Source of the DNA: a candidate division WWE3 bacterium GW2011_GWB1_41_6
Lineage (GTDB): Bacteria; Patescibacteriota; WWE3; UBA101185; UBA10185
Direction of reading: 5' to 3'
DNA: 32,612 nt
Assembly (NCBI GenBank): GCA_000997355.1
Contig: LCBS01000013.1
Location: forward strand, 1-32,612
A program made the translations under genes and the position numbers. This document shows positions 1 through 8,546 of this stretch, piece after piece (within the stretch, counting starts at the first letter, position 1; every line of letters starts with the position of its first letter). The notes below the pieces were generated by a model, which saw only the letters and a program-made list of their open reading frames with translations, was not told the origin of the DNA and did no database searches.

Positions 1-1423
1 GCTCAACCTCTTCAAATGGAATCTCTATTCTCAACAAGTCGATTGCATTGATCATATCGTAAATATCAAGTTTATTTTCCAGTTTATATATCGCGTCTCT
101 CCAAAGTACCGCTTTCTCATATTCCCCTGTTTCGGCAGCTTTTTTCTCTAGTTTTTTCATCATTTCCATAAACGCGTAGTAAACTCCCTCCTCTGCACCA
201 CCTGCTCCGATGGTTCTATCTTTAAATGGAATACGTAACATCTCCGACTGTGACTTGGCCATTTGTCTTATTTTACCAGTCCTTTGCCAGTTAAAAGCTG
301 TTGATACTATATTTTGATACAAATTGTATGCTTGTCCTACTTTTTCGCTGTCCGCGTTTGGCACTAATTTGATGGTCTCAAGAAGCTGATGCGCGCCATC
401 CTCGATCATTTCAACACTCCACCATGGTTTAGCAGACGCCCACCAGAAGTGATCGCTCGCCACGGCTTTATCCATGCTGTGTCGCACAGTATCATATATA
501 TTACTGCTTTTGCCTACTTGATACACTTCGTTAAGCACTATATTGAGCAATTCCCATTGCCATTTGTGAATATCGTTGCTCGGGTCATACCATGACAAAA
601 ACTGAATACCTTTCTCAATGTCTTCTTTACTGCTTGCCCACGTTGATGCAACAGGTTCTACGTCAATAACCTCACTAAAATACTGCGGTATCTCTGATAT
701 TTTAATAAATTTAAAAGAAGTATCATTAAAAATCTTGAATAATAAGTTCTCCAGATCCGGCCTGTGATGCCCAAACGTTTCCCCATCCATACCGGTAACA
801 GCGTACCTGTTCTGCTCCAAATCACCTTTTAAAGCCTCTTTAAGACTCCCGGGTGTACGCACGACTGCACTCATGATTAAGTTACTTATTCTCCTATCCC
901 TAAAATAAACATTTAAATTAGAATCTTTTATCTTATATGTTTTACTATAGTCCACGGGCTCACTCCCCCCGGAATGCGCTATCTCATCCAGGATCACCCA
1001 ATTAAAGCCGAAATCCTCAAGTATAGGGATTAGTTTTGGATCGTACCCCATCTCCGGAGGAAAAAATCCTTTCGGCGCATAAGCATCGCCCAAAAAGTAA
1101 CTAGCGGTTTCGTTATTTATCTCAATTTGTCTATGTATTTCATTATCAGAAACCAGTGGCAAAAACGCGTGGTACTTTGCCGAACCTGTAAATTCCAGTG
1201 AACCGTTCTTGGCGGCCAAACGCAAATTATCTATCAAACTGTGGTAACCATATTTATCAAACAGCTCAAGCAGGGACCCGTTAATATTTAATGTAATTTT
1301 AATATGAGGATTGTCTACGATTCCCTGAATAAGCTTTTCGTAGCTTTGTTTTACTACAGCTTCCAAGATGTCCGGCTGCTGGTCGGCCGGTTGGTATAAA
1401 TGTAAAAAATTCGCCCAATACAT
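1..1423 (-). CDS. GH57 family glycoside hydrolase, 3' end cut by window edge
   Basis: The frame is open from an ATG at 1423 to the window edge, giving 474 codons without a stop. The protein starts MYWANFLHLYQP; HLYQP matches the HQP-type first conserved region of GH57. GFFPPEM (E124) and GMDGETFGHH (D213) match regions 3 and 4, which carry the nucleophile Glu and acid/base Asp in the family. GH57 enzymes act on alpha-glucans (amylase, branching enzyme or 4-alpha-glucanotransferase); I cannot say which. The start lies 14 nt after the stop of the paralogous upstream gene and has no promoter or clear Shine-Dalgarno, so it is probably co-transcribed. Residues about 421-453 resemble a UVR motif (EYEKAVLWRDAIYKLE), which is odd for this family. 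Confidence 0.88.
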   Translation of the reverse strand, partial: MYWANFLHLYQPADQQPDILEAVVKQSYEKLIQGIVDNPHIKITLNINGSLLELFDKYGYHSLIDNLRLAAKNGSLEFTGSAKYHAFLPLVSDNEIHRQIEINNETASYFLGDAYAPKGFFPPEMGYDPKLIPILEDFGFNWVILDEIAHSGGSEPVDYSKTYKIKDSNLNVYFRDRRISNLIMSAVVRTPGSLKEALKGDLEQNRYAVTGMDGETFGHHRPDLENLLFKIFNDTSFKFIKISEIPQYFSEVIDVEPVASTWASSKEDIEKGIQFLSWYDPSNDIHKWQWELLNIVLNEVYQVGKSSNIYDTVRHSMDKAVASDHFWWASAKPWWSVEMIEDGAHQLLETIKLVPNADSEKVGQAYNLYQNIVSTAFNWQRTGKIRQMAKSQSEMLRIPFKDRTIGAGGAEEGVYYAFMEMMKKLEKKAAETGEYEKAVLWRDAIYKLENKLDIYDMINAIDLLRIEIPFEEVE

Positions 1424-1437
1424 ATGATCACAAATAA

Positions 1438-2718
1438 CTAATAAATCCTGTTATCCATATCCCTTACTGCTGACAAAACCTTTTCCAGTTCCTGCCTTAT
1501 AGACTCAGTTTTCACGGTATCGTTTTCAAGATCCAACACCCTTTTATACGCCTCCATGCTTCTTTTGATCATACCTGCATCAAACAAGACCTTGCCGTCA
1601 GGCATTTCCTTGTTCGAAGCCCACCAGAACTGGTCACTGCTCAAAGCCTGACTGATATACATGTCCTTTTTAAGTGATTCCCGTAACGTAGGGTCGTCAA
1701 TAACAGAAAGTTTGTCCTCATTCCAGATAGGCAATGTTTCGTAATCATCTGTTGAGCCGGCAAACTCCCTGCCATCATATAAAGAAATAAAATCTTTATA
1801 TAAATCCCACATTTTTTTCTGTAATTCATTGTTTTTCCTATGCCACATCGGATAGGCATCCCCATTTTCAATACCCTCCTCTACGGCAGCCCATGTGGAT
1901 TCGTTTATATGCTCTATATCCGTGGGAGAAACATGTTCGATCAATTCCGATACCGTCACAAACTCCCTTCCTGCATTGTGCATCGCATCAACAAAGCTCT
2001 CCAGAAGATACATTCCATCTCTATTGTGATGGCCAAACGTTTCCCCGTCCAAAGCGACAATGTAGTTATCCCTGCTTAATAAAAGGTGCATAATGTCTTC
2101 CACGCTGCCGTTACGCTTAAAGGACAGAACATTACTGATCTCACGTTCACGGACGGCGAGCTTGATCATACTATCTCCAAGTTTATACAGACCGCCCTTC
2201 TTCACCAAGCCGCCCGGTATTGCACATTCATCCATCACGACCCATTTGTACCCAAGTTCATCAAGTAAACTCACCAGCTCCTCATTTACGGCCATCTCGG
2301 GAGGAAAGAAACCATTAAGGTTCTTTAGCATGACTGAAGGCTCCCCCTCAAAGCCCGCCCTTCTCCCTACATAGTAGCCAAGACCGTATTCGTTTAGAAT
2401 TATTTGTTTTTCTATGAAACTTAAGGGTAATTTTGTAAGCAAAGGGTGGTAGGCAGCGCTTCCCGTCAGCTCTACCCTACCGGCATCTACCAGCTCTCTC
2501 AACTGATCGACCCAGCTCAAATATCCGTACTTCTCCATTTGTTGAAGAAGGCTTAACGGAACGTTTAAAGTAACCTTAAAGTCTTTTCTGTTCTTTATGA
2601 ATTTTAATAGAGGAAGATAGCTTGCAGACGTGATGTCATGAAAAACCCCTGGGTCTTGTGTGAGTGGTTGATACAGATGTAACAACAAACCAATTTTCGG
2701 TGAAATCTCATTTTTCAC
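1438..2718 (-). CDS. GH57 family glycoside hydrolase
   Basis: A complete 426-aa GH57 protein and close paralogue of the downstream gene; motifs align in the same order. HLYQP is at residues 14-18, GFFPPEM places the predicted nucleophile at E141, and ALDGETFGHH places the acid/base Asp at D224. No signal peptide is visible, so it is probably cytoplasmic. The start is a GTG at 2718: a TATAAT box (2726-2731) lies 7 nt upstream, which suggests a leaderless mRNA. Its position between a second GH57 gene and a glycogen synthase points to a role in synthesis, branching or turnover of an alpha-glucan store. The exact activity cannot be read from sequence alone. Confidence 0.9.
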   Translation of the reverse strand: MKNEISPKIGLLLHLYQPLTQDPGVFHDITSASYLPLLKFIKNRKDFKVTLNVPLSLLQQMEKYGYLSWVDQLRELVDAGRVELTGSAAYHPLLTKLPLSFIEKQIILNEYGLGYYVGRRAGFEGEPSVMLKNLNGFFPPEMAVNEELVSLLDELGYKWVVMDECAIPGGLVKKGGLYKLGDSMIKLAVREREISNVLSFKRNGSVEDIMHLLLSRDNYIVALDGETFGHHNRDGMYLLESFVDAMHNAGREFVTVSELIEHVSPTDIEHINESTWAAVEEGIENGDAYPMWHRKNNELQKKMWDLYKDFISLYDGREFAGSTDDYETLPIWNEDKLSVIDDPTLRESLKKDMYISQALSSDQFWWASNKEMPDGKVLFDAGMIKRSMEAYKRVLDLENDTVKTESIRQELEKVLSAVRDMDNRIY

Positions 2719-2764
2719 AGTCGAAATTATATCATATTTTGTGCTTTACCACCTTAATTTTATC

Positions 2765-2862
2765 AACACAAAACAAAAACAACCCAATATAAGAGGAGCC
2801 TGTTTCATATTCTCCTGCCCACAGAATAAGAAAACAGAACCCCTCATACATTGGGTCGTTAT
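2765..2862 (-). ncRNA. candidate small hairpin RNA with its own promoter and U-rich end
   Basis: A minus-strand consensus promoter (2869-2897) points into a long imperfect inverted repeat. Arms at about 2825-2860 and 2778-2815 pair almost end to end around a roughly 9-nt loop (GUGGGCAGG). Several mismatches between the DNA arms become G-U pairs only in the minus-strand RNA, so that strand is the likely folded product. The hairpin is followed by a U-rich tail (GUUGUUUUUGUUUUG), as in an intrinsic terminator. The RNA would be about 100 nt. The downstream GH57 gene has its own -10 box, so this need not be its leader. Alternatives are a plain glgA terminator or an attenuator. No known RNA family is recognised. 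Confidence 0.5.
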
Positions 2863-2868
2863 GTGGAC

Positions 2869-2897
2869 AGTATAGCAATTTGTTATAGGTTTGTCAA
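2869..2897 (-). promoter_or_regulatory. consensus sigma70-type promoter for the hairpin RNA
   Basis: Read on the minus strand: TTGACA (2897-2892), a 17-nt spacer and TATACT (2874-2869). This is one of the best promoter matches in the window. Transcription would start near 2862, exactly at the foot of the hairpin. Confidence 0.65.
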
Positions 2898-2945
2898 ACG
2901 TACGTGTTGTTAAATTAGGGGATTTGAAGCGAGGTGAGTTAACAT

Positions 2946-4448
2946 CTAGCTCAACAACATAGCCATATGCTTAGGCACCTGATTCGCCTTGCTTTTAAAG
3001 GCAATTGAACGTTCATATAACTTTTCATATTCTTTCGCACTGAATTCCCAGCTAAAATCAGCTCTCATAGCATTGACCACCAACTGTCTCCAAAGTTTCT
3101 TATTGTTGTAAAGTTCGATAGCCCTTACGATTTGTCCAAACAACGAGAAAACATCAAAATCATTGAAAACGAACCCGGTTCCCTTACCTTTTATCGAATC
3201 AAAGTTCTCTACCGTGTCCGCCAATCCCCCTACTTTTCTTACGATTGGTATAGCACCATATCTCATCGACTCAATTTGTACGATACCGCAAGGTTCGAAC
3301 CTGGATGGATATAAGATACAGTCACATCCGGAAAATAACATGCGCGGTAATGTGAAATTTGGATAAGGATGAATTCCTACTTTTTCCGGGTATTTATTTC
3401 TCAGATCGGTCAGCATGGCTGCTAAACCCCCATCCCCGCCTCCCACCTGCACAAATTGCACGTCATAATCTTTCATAACTTGGTGAAGTGTGTTCACTAT
3501 TAAGTCCACACCTTTCATCGGATCAAGCCGCCCTACAAAGCCAAAAACCGGCACTTCTTCTCTTAAAGGCAAATCGTATTCTTTTTGCAATGCTGTTTTG
3601 TTTTCTTTTCTTAAGTGGACCGAAGAAACGGAATAGTTTTGTTCGATTAGATTGTCGGTAGCAGGATTGAACTCGTTGTAGTCAAGACCATTTACAATTC
3701 CAAACATTTTCCCCTTTACTTCAAGGAGTAATTTATCAAGATTCTCACCGAACTCAGGAGTCAGTATTTCCTTCGAATATTTTTTTGATACTGTATTTAC
3801 AGCATCGGAATAAAGTACTCCCCTTTTCATGAAATTCTGTTTGTTTAATCTTTCATCAAAAAAAGAAGCTACTGGTGATTTTCCATCATCAAAATCAAGT
3901 TCCGAAACATGCTTATGGTCGAACATGCCCTGGAACTGGAGGTTGTGTATAGTAAAGACCGTAGCCACCTGACTGATCAGAGGGTCTTTGTCATATACGG
4001 TTTTGATATAGTTGGAAACGATCCCGGTATGCCAATCGTTCGTATGCAGAACATCAGGAACAAATATACGGGTCTTTATGAACTCCAATACTCCGCGAGA
4101 CAAAAGCGCCCATCGTGTGGGGTCATCGCTGTAACCGTAAACGTTTGCACGTTTTTCATAATACTCCTGATTCTCTAAAAAGTAGGTTATTACTCCACTT
4201 GGATATTCGGTAGATTTGATGTTGCAGATAAGAAACGGGTTGTTCTCATCCCCTGTCGGAACCTGCAAGCCTTCATAAATAGTTTCGATCTTGTACTGTT
4301 CTTCGTTCAAGAAACCAAACTTTGGCATAAAAATGCGTACGTCATGACCCCTTTTTACTAAGGCTCTGGATAAGTAACCTACCACCGAGGCGAAACCGCC
4401 GATGGATGCATAGGGAGCAGCTTCTGTAGCCACTAACAGGACGTTCAT
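2946..4448 (-). CDS. glgA: glycogen/starch synthase, GT5 family
   Basis: Transfers glucose from a nucleotide sugar to the end of an alpha-1,4-glucan. At 500 aa it is close to the usual 480. Visible motifs in order: N-terminal MNVLLVATEAAP with IGGFASVVG, HTNDWHT (135-141), GIVNGLDYNEFNP (about 250), VGRLDPMKG (R307, K312) and PSRFEPCGIVQIE (E385) in the C-terminal GT-B domain. The family's KTGGL signature reads SIGGF here, so the sugar-nucleotide-contacting Lys at position 15 is Ser; the donor or its binding may differ from the E. coli enzyme. A TACAAT box (4455-4460) ends exactly 6 nt before the ATG, so the mRNA is probably leaderless. Two GH57 genes follow on the same strand. Confidence 0.93.
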   Translation of the reverse strand: MNVLLVATEAAPYASIGGFASVVGYLSRALVKRGHDVRIFMPKFGFLNEEQYKIETIYEGLQVPTGDENNPFLICNIKSTEYPSGVITYFLENQEYYEKRANVYGYSDDPTRWALLSRGVLEFIKTRIFVPDVLHTNDWHTGIVSNYIKTVYDKDPLISQVATVFTIHNLQFQGMFDHKHVSELDFDDGKSPVASFFDERLNKQNFMKRGVLYSDAVNTVSKKYSKEILTPEFGENLDKLLLEVKGKMFGIVNGLDYNEFNPATDNLIEQNYSVSSVHLRKENKTALQKEYDLPLREEVPVFGFVGRLDPMKGVDLIVNTLHQVMKDYDVQFVQVGGGDGGLAAMLTDLRNKYPEKVGIHPYPNFTLPRMLFSGCDCILYPSRFEPCGIVQIESMRYGAIPIVRKVGGLADTVENFDSIKGKGTGFVFNDFDVFSLFGQIVRAIELYNNKKLWRQLVVNAMRADFSWEFSAKEYEKLYERSIAFKSKANQVPKHMAMLLS

Positions 4449-4515
4449 ACGAATATTGTATCACAAGGAATTCTTTGCGTAATCAATATAAGAGATACGC
4501 TTTATATACTTTTTA

Positions 4516-5418
4516 CTATGCGTTTAGAGTTTCTTCAAGTTCCCTGGCCAGTTGTTCTTCACCAAGTTCCTGAAGATCTTGCTTTAATTGCATGTCCGCA
4601 ACCACACTAAGACTGTGCATTTCTTTTTTACTATCGAAAACATTGTTATTAGTTGTGGTTATGAGGCATAGTTGGGCTGTCTTTTCGTCAGCTGAAACAA
4701 GATTTAGCATTCTTTCGAAAAATTCCCTGTCTTCAGGTCTTACATATACATGTAATATTGAAAATGGTTTTATCGGTTTATGCAGTGAGAGACCTGCGTT
4801 CATTGTGAATGCATAATCTATCGATGCTTTTTTTGCACTTTTATCAATGTTCTGTGCAATGTCCTTTAATCCCCCGATGAGACTTCTATAGTAATTGAAT
4901 ACTTTTTCCGGTTGTCTTTTTTGCTCGTATACATCCGTCATACTACCAACCGTTTCGGCCGGTTTAGTGGTAGTTTCTTCTTGGAATGTCATATCTTCTT
5001 CTTTGTATTTACTTGCTGCAGCTCTAAACTTTGCTAACCAGTCTACAGGTTCTTCTTCAACAGTTGGCTGTTGAGTAACCGGATGAGGTTGTGGTTCCGG
5101 CTGTGGTTGTACAGGTTCTTCTTTTACCTGTACTGGTTCAGCAATGACTTCTTTTTCTTCCTTTGTCTCAACGGTAATTTCCTGTATAACCGGTTCTATT
5201 TTTTGTTTTTGGATTGGTTCTTTTTGTACTTTTTCACCTTGGGGATATAAAAATTCTAATATGTTCTGCTTTGTAAATCTATGTCTTCCGGTAGCAGTCT
5301 TTACCTCTGCTTTTAACTTATCTTCGTCTAAGTATCTGTAAACAGATCTTAAACTTACACCTAGTATCTCAGCAACTTCTGTAGACGTATAAAGTCTATC
5401 TTCTAAATTCATAATCAT
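4516..5418 (-). CDS. MerR/excisionase-type helix-turn-helix protein with Glu/Pro-rich linker
   Basis: A 300-aa protein. Residues about 9-57 form a MerR/excisionase-like winged HTH (YTSTEVAEILGVSLRSVYRYL, then GRHRF), so it probably binds DNA. Residues about 60-125 are low complexity, rich in Glu, Pro, Gln and Val. The C-terminal 130 residues look folded (helical start, then a strand-rich part around LHVYVRPEDREFFERML) but I do not recognise them. No membrane segment is seen. The start is uncertain: ATG at 5418 or a second in-frame ATG two codons on. It is followed 31 nt after its start by the end of no other gene on this side; the downstream neighbours are the glycogen genes, the upstream ones tagA and mreB. 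The regulated target is unknown. Confidence 0.7.
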   Translation of the reverse strand: MIMNLEDRLYTSTEVAEILGVSLRSVYRYLDEDKLKAEVKTATGRHRFTKQNILEFLYPQGEKVQKEPIQKQKIEPVIQEITVETKEEKEVIAEPVQVKEEPVQPQPEPQPHPVTQQPTVEEEPVDWLAKFRAAASKYKEEDMTFQEETTTKPAETVGSMTDVYEQKRQPEKVFNYYRSLIGGLKDIAQNIDKSAKKASIDYAFTMNAGLSLHKPIKPFSILHVYVRPEDREFFERMLNLVSADEKTAQLCLITTTNNNVFDSKKEMHSLSVVADMQLKQDLQELGEEQLARELEETLNA

Positions 5419-5449
5419 ATATAAAGCAAATCATATATGTTATGACCTG

Positions 5450-6334
5450 TCAAGAAGTTCTTATTGAGGTAATGAATACCTTTAACGGATACGCCGGAAA
5501 AGCCTTGTAAATGCGCTTAATACGCCACGGTTGAGTAATTAATTTATACAACCACTCTATATTCACCTTTATAAACACATTAGCACTCCTCTTCTTATTA
5601 CTACATACGTAGTCAAACGTCCCGCCTACCCCTACCGACACTTTGGCGGGTATTTTGTACCCGTTTCTATCTATCCATTTTTCCTGACGAACATGTCCAT
5701 ATGCTACTAATAAAAAGTCAATATAAGAAACACTATGTTCAACCATGCAACCTTTAATGTACCTTACCGTATCCGCATCATCTTCGTCTTCACAACTATA
5801 CGAGGATGTAGACCCAATAACTCTCAATCGCGGGTACAATATTTTTAGAGCGTCAGCAGTAAGTGTAGCTATATCATCACCGTCCTGAATGAACCTCCCG
5901 TAACTGTCTTTTTTTCTTCCTCCTAATAAGAATATGCTTTTATTATTCATCTCTGCGTACTCGCATATTTTATATACAAGATCAACTCCGGTTATCTTCG
6001 GTGGGAATTGTCTAACCACACGGGGGTCAAATCCGGTCTGTAATCCCAGCACAAAAGCCCTTAACGGCAACAGAGTGTCACGCTTAAGTCCGGCAGCTTT
6101 TTCAAGGTAATACTCCGCATACAACACGCCCGAACCATCCGGAACCGACAGGTCGGACTCATTTATAATACTCATAAATTCCCTATCCTTCTGGGCATCC
6201 ATAATAAATTCAGGATTAGTTGTTGAAATATAATGAAAACCGCCGTCACTTAACATCCCGTCTATATGGTTTATTACGCCACTCATTGTCAGCCCGGTAT
6301 TTACTTTTACACCCAAAATATATGTTTCTTTCAT
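5450..6334 (-). CDS. WecG/TagA/CpsF family glycosyltransferase (GT26)
   Basis: Membrane-associated enzymes of this family add N-acetylmannosamine or a related sugar to a lipid-linked sugar in wall-polymer or exopolysaccharide synthesis. Motifs: TTNPEF (38-43), PDGSGV (65-70, with D66 in the place of the catalytic Asp of TagA), KITGVDL (113-119), a nucleotide-binding IFLLGG stretch, and GVGGTFDYVCSNKKRS near the C-terminus. At 294 aa it is longer than the usual 240-250, mainly through extra residues between PDGSGV and KITGVDL. Its ATG overlaps the mreB stop by 4 nt (ATGA), so the two are translationally coupled. This links polymer synthesis to the shape-determining cytoskeleton. Confidence 0.88.
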   Translation of the reverse strand: MKETYILGVKVNTGLTMSGVINHIDGMLSDGGFHYISTTNPEFIMDAQKDREFMSIINESDLSVPDGSGVLYAEYYLEKAAGLKRDTLLPLRAFVLGLQTGFDPRVVRQFPPKITGVDLVYKICEYAEMNNKSIFLLGGRKKDSYGRFIQDGDDIATLTADALKILYPRLRVIGSTSSYSCEDEDDADTVRYIKGCMVEHSVSYIDFLLVAYGHVRQEKWIDRNGYKIPAKVSVGVGGTFDYVCSNKKRSANVFIKVNIEWLYKLITQPWRIKRIYKAFPAYPLKVFITSIRTS

Positions 6335-7335
6335 CTCTTTATCATACTTCGGCTAAATATATCAAAATTCTCCAGCGCCTTCCCCAACCCCTTAACCACA
6401 CACAGCAAAGGATCGTCCGAGATATGAACGGGAACTCCTGTGAATTGTGTGACATGTTTATCCAAATTCTGCAATAAGGCGGTTCCTCCGCTCAACACAA
6501 TCCCCTTGTCCACAATGTCTGACGATAACTCAGGCGGTGTGCGTTCCAAAACGTTCTTAATTGACATACCAATTTGCGACAAAGACTGTGAAAGACATGC
6601 AACAATCTCGCTCGAAGAAATGTTGATTGTCTTAGGAAACCCACTTACCGAATCCCTGCCCTTCACTTCCAATTGTTTCTCTTTGGACAACGGAAGAGCT
6701 GCCCCAACCTCAATTTTCACACGTTCGGCGGTATTGTCACCTATTATCAGATTGTATTTTCTCCTGATATATAAAGAAATTGCTTCATCCAAAGTATTAC
6801 CCCCTACCCTGACACTTCCATGAACAACCATGCCATACAGAGAAACTATGGCGATTTCTGTAGTTCCCCCACCAATATTAACGATCATATTCCCTGACGG
6901 TTCGGAAACAGGAAGTCCCGCACCAATCGCAGCGGCTAAAGGTTCGGGTATTAAATATGCATTCTTCGCTCCGGCGGAATAAGCAGCCTCCAGAACAGCT
7001 CGTGCCTCCACCGAAGTAGCTCCACCGGGAATTGAAATAATAACGTCAGGCTTTGTCAGCCTTGAATTACCGGTGACCTTATTAATAAAATATCTTAATA
7101 AAGCTTCCGTCGTGGCGTAGTCGGCGATAACACCGTTTTTCAACGGTCTGGTTGCGACGATATTTTCAGGAGTCTTTCCCAACATATCCCTTGCTTCGAT
7201 ACCTACAGACACTACCTTCTCATCATCAATCGAAACCGCAACTACTGTAGGCTCCCTAAGCACGATACCTTTTCCTGAAACGTATACGAGAGAGTTTGCT
7301 GTTCCAAGGTCTACGGCAATTTTCTTAGAAAACAT
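6331..7335 (-). CDS. mreB: rod shape-determining protein, actin-like ATPase
   Basis: Forms membrane-bound filaments that position cell-wall synthesis. The actin-fold motifs are visible: phosphate-1 loop DLGTANS (residues 9-15), IPGGATSVEARAV, phosphate-2 loop NIGGGTTEIAIVS (about 155) and the adenosine motif VLSGGTALL near residue 285. Its 334 aa match the family. I start it at the ATG at 7335, not at an upstream in-frame TTG, because that TTG lies against the -10 box: TATAAT (7342-7347) ends exactly 6 nt before the ATG. This gives an N-terminus MFSKKIAVDLG, as in other MreB proteins, and implies a leaderless mRNA. It overlaps the downstream glycosyltransferase by 4 nt. Confidence 0.93.
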   Translation of the reverse strand: MFSKKIAVDLGTANSLVYVSGKGIVLREPTVVAVSIDDEKVVSVGIEARDMLGKTPENIVATRPLKNGVIADYATTEALLRYFINKVTGNSRLTKPDVIISIPGGATSVEARAVLEAAYSAGAKNAYLIPEPLAAAIGAGLPVSEPSGNMIVNIGGGTTEIAIVSLYGMVVHGSVRVGGNTLDEAISLYIRRKYNLIIGDNTAERVKIEVGAALPLSKEKQLEVKGRDSVSGFPKTINISSSEIVACLSQSLSQIGMSIKNVLERTPPELSSDIVDKGIVLSGGTALLQNLDKHVTQFTGVPVHISDDPLLCVVKGLGKALENFDIFSRSMIKR

Positions 7336-7391
7336 AACTGGATTATACAATATATCGGTATTATAAAACGGTTTCTGGTATAATCAGATTT
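7336..7391. promoter_or_regulatory. divergent leaderless promoter pair between mreB and the PEGA-protein gene
   Basis: Only 56 bp separate the two divergent ATGs. On the minus strand TATAAT (7342-7347) lies 6 nt before the mreB ATG. On the plus strand an extended -10, TGGTATAAT, has its hexamer at 7379-7384, 7 nt before the ATG at 7392. The two -10 boxes are about 31 bp apart, so each -35 region overlaps the other promoter. Confidence 0.7.
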
Positions 7392-8546
7392 ATGATCAGG
7401 AAGAATTGGTATCAATCGCTTCTGAGCGGTGTTATCCTAATTGGTATCACTACTCTGCTTTATTTGTATAGTGCCGGTTACCGGCTTACCCAACAGCAAG
7501 ATAGAACTATTGACCTCTCCAAGACCGGTATGATAAGTGCCAAATCGATCCCGGAGGGTTCAAGTGTTTATTTGAACGGTATCCTCCTCACAGCAACGAA
7601 CGATACCATATCCGGTATCGAGCCCGGCACCCACAACTTAAAAATAATTAAAAAAGGTTTTGTCACATGGTCAAAAGATATTGAGGTTTTCCCCGAACTT
7701 GTGACCGACATCACCGCTGTTCTGGTATCCCAAGGCCCACGACTTGAACCGCTGACCAACTCAGGAGCCCGAAACCCCACCATATCGTCTTCGCTTACTA
7801 AGCTCGCATATTTCTCCAAAGACGGTGAAACTCCCGGTATCAGGATCATTCCGTTAGCAGGAGAGGGGTTGAGCCTTTTCCGTTCGACACCGTCATCTGT
7901 TATACAGGACACACCGCGTATTATTTACTCAAACGGTAAGAGCATAGAGTGGTCTCCCGATGAAAAAAACCTAATGGTAGAGTCTGAGAACGGAACTTTT
8001 TATCTGATCGATATAGCTGAGGGAGCCGCAGAAGTCAGCACTTCCCCGCAGGAAATAAAACAGATCTGGCAGGACAAACTAAACCAAACCAGACAGGACT
8101 TCATACAAAAACTCGACATACCCGATGAGATTAAAACTTTGGCAATGTCCACAAAGACCGTGTGGTCCCCTGACGAAAAGAAATTCCTATACACAAGACA
8201 GAACGGCGCTGAACTTGAATACCGCGTATACAACCTGGAAAAACCACTGCCTGTGGGGGAAAAAGTGGAGAATACCGTATTTACAACAGCCGCTGCCGAT
8301 CCCCAACCAAAGATCTCGTGGTACGCGGATAGTTTTCACCTGATCCTTACAGAAGGTGATGTTAATGCGGATAAAAGAGGTGTGGTTAGCCTGATAAGGA
8401 TCGATGGTACAAACAAAACCGAGCTTTACAACAATACACTAATGTATGATCAGGTTTACAGTTCCCCCGCGGGCGACAAGATCATAATCTTAACTTCATT
8501 TAAATCGGGTGAACAGACCGACCTATATACGGTAAGCATTAGATAA
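7392..8546 (+). CDS. membrane-anchored PEGA-domain protein with beta-propeller-like repeats
   Basis: A 384-aa protein with an N-terminal membrane anchor (residues about 10-27), then a PEGA domain (about 47-100: IPEGSSVYLNG, GTHNLKIIKKGF). The rest is strand-rich and TolB/WD40-like, with repeated units such as IEWSPDEKNLMV and TVWSPDEKKFLYT. It is probably exposed outside the membrane and attached to the envelope; a binding or scaffolding role is inferred and no enzyme motif is seen. The ATG at 7392 follows an extended -10 box by 7 nt, so translation is probably leaderless. It is divergent from mreB, and its end converges with the sortase gene after a 24-bp gap without an evident terminator. 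Confidence 0.75.
   Translation: MIRKNWYQSLLSGVILIGITTLLYLYSAGYRLTQQQDRTIDLSKTGMISAKSIPEGSSVYLNGILLTATNDTISGIEPGTHNLKIIKKGFVTWSKDIEVFPELVTDITAVLVSQGPRLEPLTNSGARNPTISSSLTKLAYFSKDGETPGIRIIPLAGEGLSLFRSTPSSVIQDTPRIIYSNGKSIEWSPDEKNLMVESENGTFYLIDIAEGAAEVSTSPQEIKQIWQDKLNQTRQDFIQKLDIPDEIKTLAMSTKTVWSPDEKKFLYTRQNGAELEYRVYNLEKPLPVGEKVENTVFTTAAADPQPKISWYADSFHLILTEGDVNADKRGVVSLIRIDGTNKTELYNNTLMYDQVYSSPAGDKIIILTSFKSGEQTDLYTVSIR

Follow-up and report, generated by a model that had tools for sequence, protein, structure and literature searches.

A predicted small RNA family of WWE3 bacteria whose invariant apical loop may pair with the translation starts of surface-protein mRNAs

INTRODUCTION

In kissing RNAs of the OxyS-fhlA and CopA/CopT type, contact with the mRNA begins at an apical loop, and we propose the same for a predicted small RNA of WWE3 bacteria that is described here. 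CopA is a cis-antisense RNA to one target, whereas the WWE3 RNA is unlinked to the several targets proposed for it.

Two other described systems come close to the WWE3 RNA. Trans-encoded small RNAs acting on the ‘five-codon window’ have, like the WWE3 RNA, their own promoter, a terminator-like end, several mRNA targets and sites that coincide with the start codon or follow it directly; initiation is usually blocked when pairing falls in the start region or within codons 1–5 (PMC9486967). The seed of these RNAs is an unpaired stretch, whereas the seed proposed here is the apical loop of a long hairpin; furthermore, we recognised no Hfq-type site in the WWE3 RNA, which has no Rfam match and comes from a lineage of the Candidate Phyla Radiation (CPR).

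The second system is RNAIII of Staphylococcus aureus, which represses surface and secreted proteins by loop pairing near the start of their mRNAs (PMC2837412). A hairpin loop of RNAIII contacts the coa mRNA near its start, with a loop–loop contact in the coding region. However, RNAIII is long, multi-hairpin and peptide-encoding, and its C-rich loops bind Shine-Dalgarno sequences, while the WWE3 RNA has a G-rich loop and its sites are not Shine-Dalgarno sequences. We claim no sequence relation between the two RNAs.

RESULTS

A covarying hairpin with an invariant apical loop

The window analysed here is the whole 32,612-nt contig LCBS01000013.1 of candidate division WWE3 bacterium GW2011_GWB1_41_6. 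The predicted RNA gene (2772..2862, minus strand), both ends of which we infer from promoter distance, fold and model matches, is located between a glycogen synthase gene, glgA (2946..4448, minus strand; TIGR02095), and a gene for a GH57 family glycoside hydrolase (1438..2718, minus strand; PF03065). Gene coordinates and both family matches thus agree with the placement given in the initial annotation.

The long hairpin (2778..2860, minus strand), which is conserved in homologues, has 35 pairs in its minimum-energy fold, in keeping with the near-continuous pairing of ∼36 pairs described initially. Its folding energy is −43.4 kcal/mol versus −20.0 ± 2.8 kcal/mol for shuffled sequences (z = −8.3; none of 200 shuffles as good). 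The plus-strand RNA folds far less well (−25.8 kcal/mol, z = −6.5), which bears out the earlier remark that several arm differences form G–U pairs in the minus-strand RNA only. Directly after the hairpin comes the U-rich, terminator-like tract that had been noted at its end (2768..2777, minus strand). By a crude count, at least five Ts in 8 nt are present at the stem end in 15 of 24 homologues; G004, G007 and G011 are among the genomes with a weak tract.

Many members carry an asymmetric 5′ bulge, (A)CA[CT]TAAAG (e.g. L037), one helical turn below the loop. A possible pairing of the conserved ACUAAA bulge with UUUAGU, seen by eye in the leaders of some targets, was rejected because it was inconsistent across genomes.

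A DNA search of relatives returned homologues in 16 genomes, with the apical sequence CUGUGGGCAGGAG in common and with differing stem sequences. The covariance-model search detected a single locus in 24 of the 27 genomes of the family and no locus in 18 genomes of sister families from the same class. As to the three family genomes with no match, the contig of G018 stops within the upstream gene of the RNA locus, and in G013 and G025 this upstream gene was likewise not found; since the neighbourhood is cut off or not found in all three, the absence of the RNA there is uninformative. The RNA is probably present in all WWE3. A scan of ∼85,000 genomes yielded at least 13 WWE3 matches, and the organism names in this public collection identify the family as WWE3/Katanobacteria. 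Thirteen non-WWE3 loci were rejected as homologues, having scores of at most 20.7 bits and a match confined to the loop stretch. A scan of IMG/VR for the RNA gave no matches.

Compensatory changes in relatives, the check proposed in the initial annotation, are abundant. Changes on both sides occur in 35 of the 37 pairs among 24 sequences, and 91.6% of alignment cells are paired, which characterizes the hairpin as a conserved RNA structure. The covariation score is 0.628 versus 0.268 in shuffled alignments, with none of 500 shuffles scoring as high; controls with slid positions reached 17–20 pairs at most and a score not above 0.207. An unfitted alignment of 17 sequences still has 29 of 37 covarying pairs.

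The apical loop GUGGGCAGG (2814..2822, minus strand) is invariant and contains the predicted seed UGGGCAGG at 2814–2821. The 9-nt loop consists of G or U followed by UGGGCAGG, and it is identical in 24 genomes save that three of them have U instead of G as the first loop nucleotide. The loop-closing pairs covary too (CU/AG, CC/GG and AU/AU). No Rfam family was matched at gathering score, and nothing but sub-threshold eukaryotic microRNA hairpins came up, consistent with no family having been recognised at first reading. By these comparisons, the hairpin is a new predicted RNA family confined to WWE3/Katanobacteria. Shine-Dalgarno mimicry by AGGAG was rejected, as this motif is not present in every loop (CAGGAU, CAGGGG).

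The promoter and the predicted transcription unit

The RNA promoter has a −35 box TTGACA (2892..2897, minus strand) and, after a 17-nt spacer, a −10 box TATACT with an extended TG (2869..2874, minus strand), identified by promoter scan and in homologues. With 11 of 12 consensus matches it is the top site in positions 1–8000 of the window. The consensus promoter that had been described as aimed into the hairpin is therefore present, on the minus strand at 2869–2897 with TG preceding the −10 box, and the hairpin begins ∼7 nt beyond the −10 box. TTGACA is exact in all 24 homologues, where it is located downstream of the preceding gene and ahead of the hairpin, and the spacing of 17 nt is kept in nearly all of them.

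The spacer contains an element, CCTATA (2884..2889, minus strand), located 2 nt past the −35 box, which is a possible regulator site. Eighteen of the 24 RNA promoters contain the exact sequence TTGACANNCCTATA, which is found in just five other, unrelated places in 27 genomes; being almost confined to RNA promoters, it is not a general feature of WWE3 promoters. Conservation of the CCTATA element suggests a dedicated regulator for the RNA. The second gene upstream codes for a MerR-like protein.

The transcript is predicted to start at ∼2862, at the base of the stem, and to end within the U tract. The predicted length of 85–95 nt is slightly less than the ∼100 nt proposed initially, while the reading as a separate RNA stands: judged from sequence, the unit has its own promoter and its own terminator. 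Covariation, the invariant loop and the promoter all support the small-RNA reading, with transcription itself predicted.

Complements of the loop at start codons

The loop sequence UGGGCAGG is complementary to CCUGCCCA. We listed all CCTGCCCA sites in six genomes and examined 95 of them besides the RNA itself. Sites located within −12..+20 of a start codon are in excess on the sense strand, with 10 of 23 sense sites versus 2 of 56 antisense sites (Fisher 3.6e-5), in a sample where the choice of motif and the discovery of targets came from the same genomes and where orthologues are not independent. The value becomes 1.0e-4 when a doubtful start of a UDP-glucose dehydrogenase gene is removed; with this start kept and each gene family counted once, 7 of 20 sense sites remain (p = 9e-4). 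The reading frames of the start sites differ, and three sites precede the ATG.

A second set comprised 40 sites from four genomes and was counted by a rule written beforehand. Two of 8 sense sites versus 1 of 31 antisense sites were close to starts (p = 0.10), the two genes concerned being mutually related; addition of the giant gene of G025 (see below), which had been known before this set was selected, gave p = 0.03. The second set agrees with the first in direction. Taken with the first set, it leaves a conserved loop with complements near the starts of unlinked mRNAs, the small second set being weak by itself.

Some of the sites are located in untranslated leaders: ttcctgccATG (five genomes), cctgcccaATG and cctgcccATG. 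Duplexes of the loop with start regions have energies from −10.5 to −18.9 kcal/mol, and 16 of 17 are at p ≤ 0.013 against shuffles; pairing in G002 is weak (p = 0.13 against shuffles).

Pfam searches assigned the targets to a secreted CBM96 protein, a Cache-domain sensor, a histidine kinase and unassigned membrane proteins. Another recurring start-site target is present in G003:C21, G024:C26 and G025:C93; its product has the N-terminus MKxxPAQRK and a membrane helix, and one of these proteins has a weak LytR-CpsA-Psr match. Judged by such assignments, the common theme of the predicted targets is cell surface and sensing. An apparent 23S rRNA, L206 (G011:C26:876-883), also has CCTGCCCA; a universal 8-mer of this kind can match by chance, although the match may also point to a contact with the ribosome.

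A giant membrane protein as the clearest predicted target

The sole orthologous sense target recurring in at least three of the six genomes has its site at codons 3–6 of a gene with a MerR-like helix-turn-helix. A search detected this giant protein in 18 of the 27 genomes; its longest open frame has 8,840 codons (G008). No orthologue was found at E 1e-3 in seven RNA-bearing genomes, perhaps due to assembly gaps. The products (G000:C21 with L270 and L258; L271, L272, L280) have 1,765 aa in the source genome, where the frame is still open, and otherwise 1,799, 3,964 and 5,758 aa. Two of the three giant proteins scanned, both of them complete, carry a Peptidase_S74 chaperone domain close to their C-terminal end.

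The sequence CTGCC after the ATG is invariant in all 15 aligned orthologue starts, the source genome included, and extends to CTGCCC in 14 of them. Over 105 aligned nucleotides of the 15 orthologues, the only invariant positions are CTGCC, the ATG and two single A columns. The residues encoded over CTGCC vary (PAQ, SAQ, AAQ, PAR and SAE), and the alanine codon at the site is always GCC, a codon that makes up 14–29% of alanine codons in four such genes. Part of the CTGCCC signal could be due to a protein motif, [PSA]AQ. In five genomes a further CCTGCC is present in non-coding sequence right before the ATG. On this conservation, the clearest predicted target of the RNA is this giant membrane protein, which has its MerR-like helix-turn-helix at the N-terminus.

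It is unusual for a surface fibre to carry a cytoplasmic DNA-binding head, here the N-terminal MerR-like helix-turn-helix. Just before the start codons of the giant genes (e.g. L245:1456-1500, L258) there is a conserved inverted repeat, TTTACTAAATGTTGT...AACAACATTTAGTAA, which may be a leader hairpin or an operator.

The sites at start codons bear on an alternative in which the small RNA is real and its loop binds a protein, for sequestration or as a scaffold, rather than pairing with mRNAs. An invariant loop on a variable stem would fit a protein-binding hairpin too. We consider such a role unlikely, given that it leaves the occurrence of sense-strand CCTGCCCA at start codons unexplained and that the GGA of CsrA-type sites is not conserved, two genomes having CAGGGG.

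Neighbouring genes and cis-acting or housekeeping roles

GH57 is the next gene downstream of the RNA, on the same strand, in 24 of 24 genomes, and a promoter followed by a hairpin and a U tract could make up a regulated 5′ leader of GH57, with attenuation at the U tract conceivable. However, a separate −10 box, TATAAT (2726..2731, minus strand), is located 7 nt ahead of the GTG start codon of the GH57 gene, with a leaderless mRNA predicted. Such a −10 box is present 4–9 nt ahead of ATG or GTG in the region upstream of GH57 in all 24 genomes, partnered by TTGACA at 16–18 nt in 12 of them, so the GH57 gene appears to have its own promoter and a leaderless mRNA; there may also be read-through from the RNA promoter into GH57.

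Further evidence comes from loci that have changed. The upstream gene is glgA in 19 of 24 genomes; in the other five (G001, G010, G015, G021 and G024) glgA is missing at the locus, and the helix-turn-helix gene that normally precedes glgA adjoins the RNA. The HxYQP motif of GH57 is kept in none of these five loci and in all 19 others, while the RNA is highly conserved throughout. As far as gene content and motifs tell, this is decay of a glycogen cluster in which the RNA persists. Since the RNA is unchanged despite these losses, its function is independent of glgA and of GH57 enzyme activity; that the RNA and GH57 are found together may be no more than an ancestral arrangement. With the loop also matching start sites elsewhere, a role as a cis-acting leader or attenuator of GH57 is improbable, slightly more so than that of a protein-binding loop.

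Three other observations on these genes were not used. Loss of the GH57 nucleophile was dropped as a signal because the simple pattern missed the nucleophile in many glgA-bearing genomes too. Co-loss of the RNA and GH57 in G013, G018 and G025 was dropped as a sign of a cis link, the absences in these genomes being uninformative. GH57 and glgA were rejected as targets, and no loop complement is present near the GH57 start.

It is very improbable that the RNA has taken the place of SRP RNA or 6S RNA, both housekeeping RNAs, specifically in this lineage. The bacterial small SRP RNA (RF00169) is similarly a single hairpin of ∼90–100 nt present in single copy, and the WWE3 RNA is near universal in its family; the RF00169 model matched in none of 28 genomes (control, 11 of 14), and the 6S RNA model RF00013 gave no match in the source genome, which is 85.7% complete and was the one genome scanned. 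The loop differs from that of SRP RNA, and the hairpin is without a symmetric loop, a GNRA-type tetraloop or a central bubble. The Ffh M domain (PF02978) is missing as well (0 of 57 genomes of the phylum; control, 14 of 14), hence there is no SRP protein partner; absence of SRP subunits has been reported for many CPR bacteria (PMC8080830). Moreover, the RNA is restricted to one family. Identity with SRP RNA was thus rejected and so, on the scan of the source genome, was identity with a recognisable 6S RNA.

Equally hard to credit is an ordinary intrinsic terminator of glgA, for although a hairpin and a U tract lie downstream of glgA in 19 of 24 genomes, the promoter stands between upstream gene and hairpin in all 24, ∼35 pairs go far beyond the needs of a terminator, the 9-nt loop is invariant where terminators need no loop sequence, and the RNA persists at the five loci that have no glgA; the element is therefore not a stem and U tract that end the upstream unit with a loop free to vary.

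DISCUSSION

The reading that we prefer is that the WWE3 RNA probably acts in trans, repressing translation of surface genes via pairing of its loop. A strong sigma-70-type promoter would start the transcript at the base of the ∼35-pair hairpin, and the transcript would end at the U tract. The stem would need pairing only, leaving its sequence to drift freely, and the 9-nt apical loop would be the working part. Presented on a rigid rod, the G-rich loop would pair with 7–9 nt where translation of surface-protein mRNAs starts: UGGGCAGG with CCUGCCCA (or U/GCUGCCCA, CCUGCCCG), from about −10 to +20 of the start codon. Targets would be mRNAs of surface and membrane proteins, chiefly that of the giant membrane protein with the MerR-like helix-turn-helix, and pairing of the loop at the start region would hinder ribosome loading.

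From sequence we infer that the RNA is transcribed and stable, that it pairs with mRNAs and that it represses rather than activates. Repression is the default reading because pairing in the start region typically blocks initiation and because RNAIII provides a precedent; activation instead of repression is possible.

MerR-type regulators bind promoter spacers. It is conceivable, if unlikely, that a contact-dependent switch is built around the RNA, in which the MerR-like heads of the giant proteins would act on CCTATA and the RNA would repress the same giant-protein genes; such a feedback loop would choose the surface fibre displayed by a WWE3 cell. What is seen is the helix-turn-helix head on the targets and the unique spacer element; the link between them is speculation.

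Post-transcriptional regulation is almost unexplored in the CPR. Open-access full texts contained nothing on WWE3 together with noncoding RNA, and the combination of Patescibacteria and sRNA led to unrelated papers only. With the RNA described here, a network of regulation by a small RNA would be predicted for the first time in WWE3, which are uncultured and probably symbiotic bacteria. The outcome is an RNA family defined precisely enough to be tested, with its promoter, its seed and targets that can be named. The main targets are giant surface proteins that have a DNA-binding head and, at the C-terminal end, an S74 domain; an episymbiont might hold its partner with proteins of this kind, and the RNA may thus open a way into the control of attachment in uncultured WWE3 cells.
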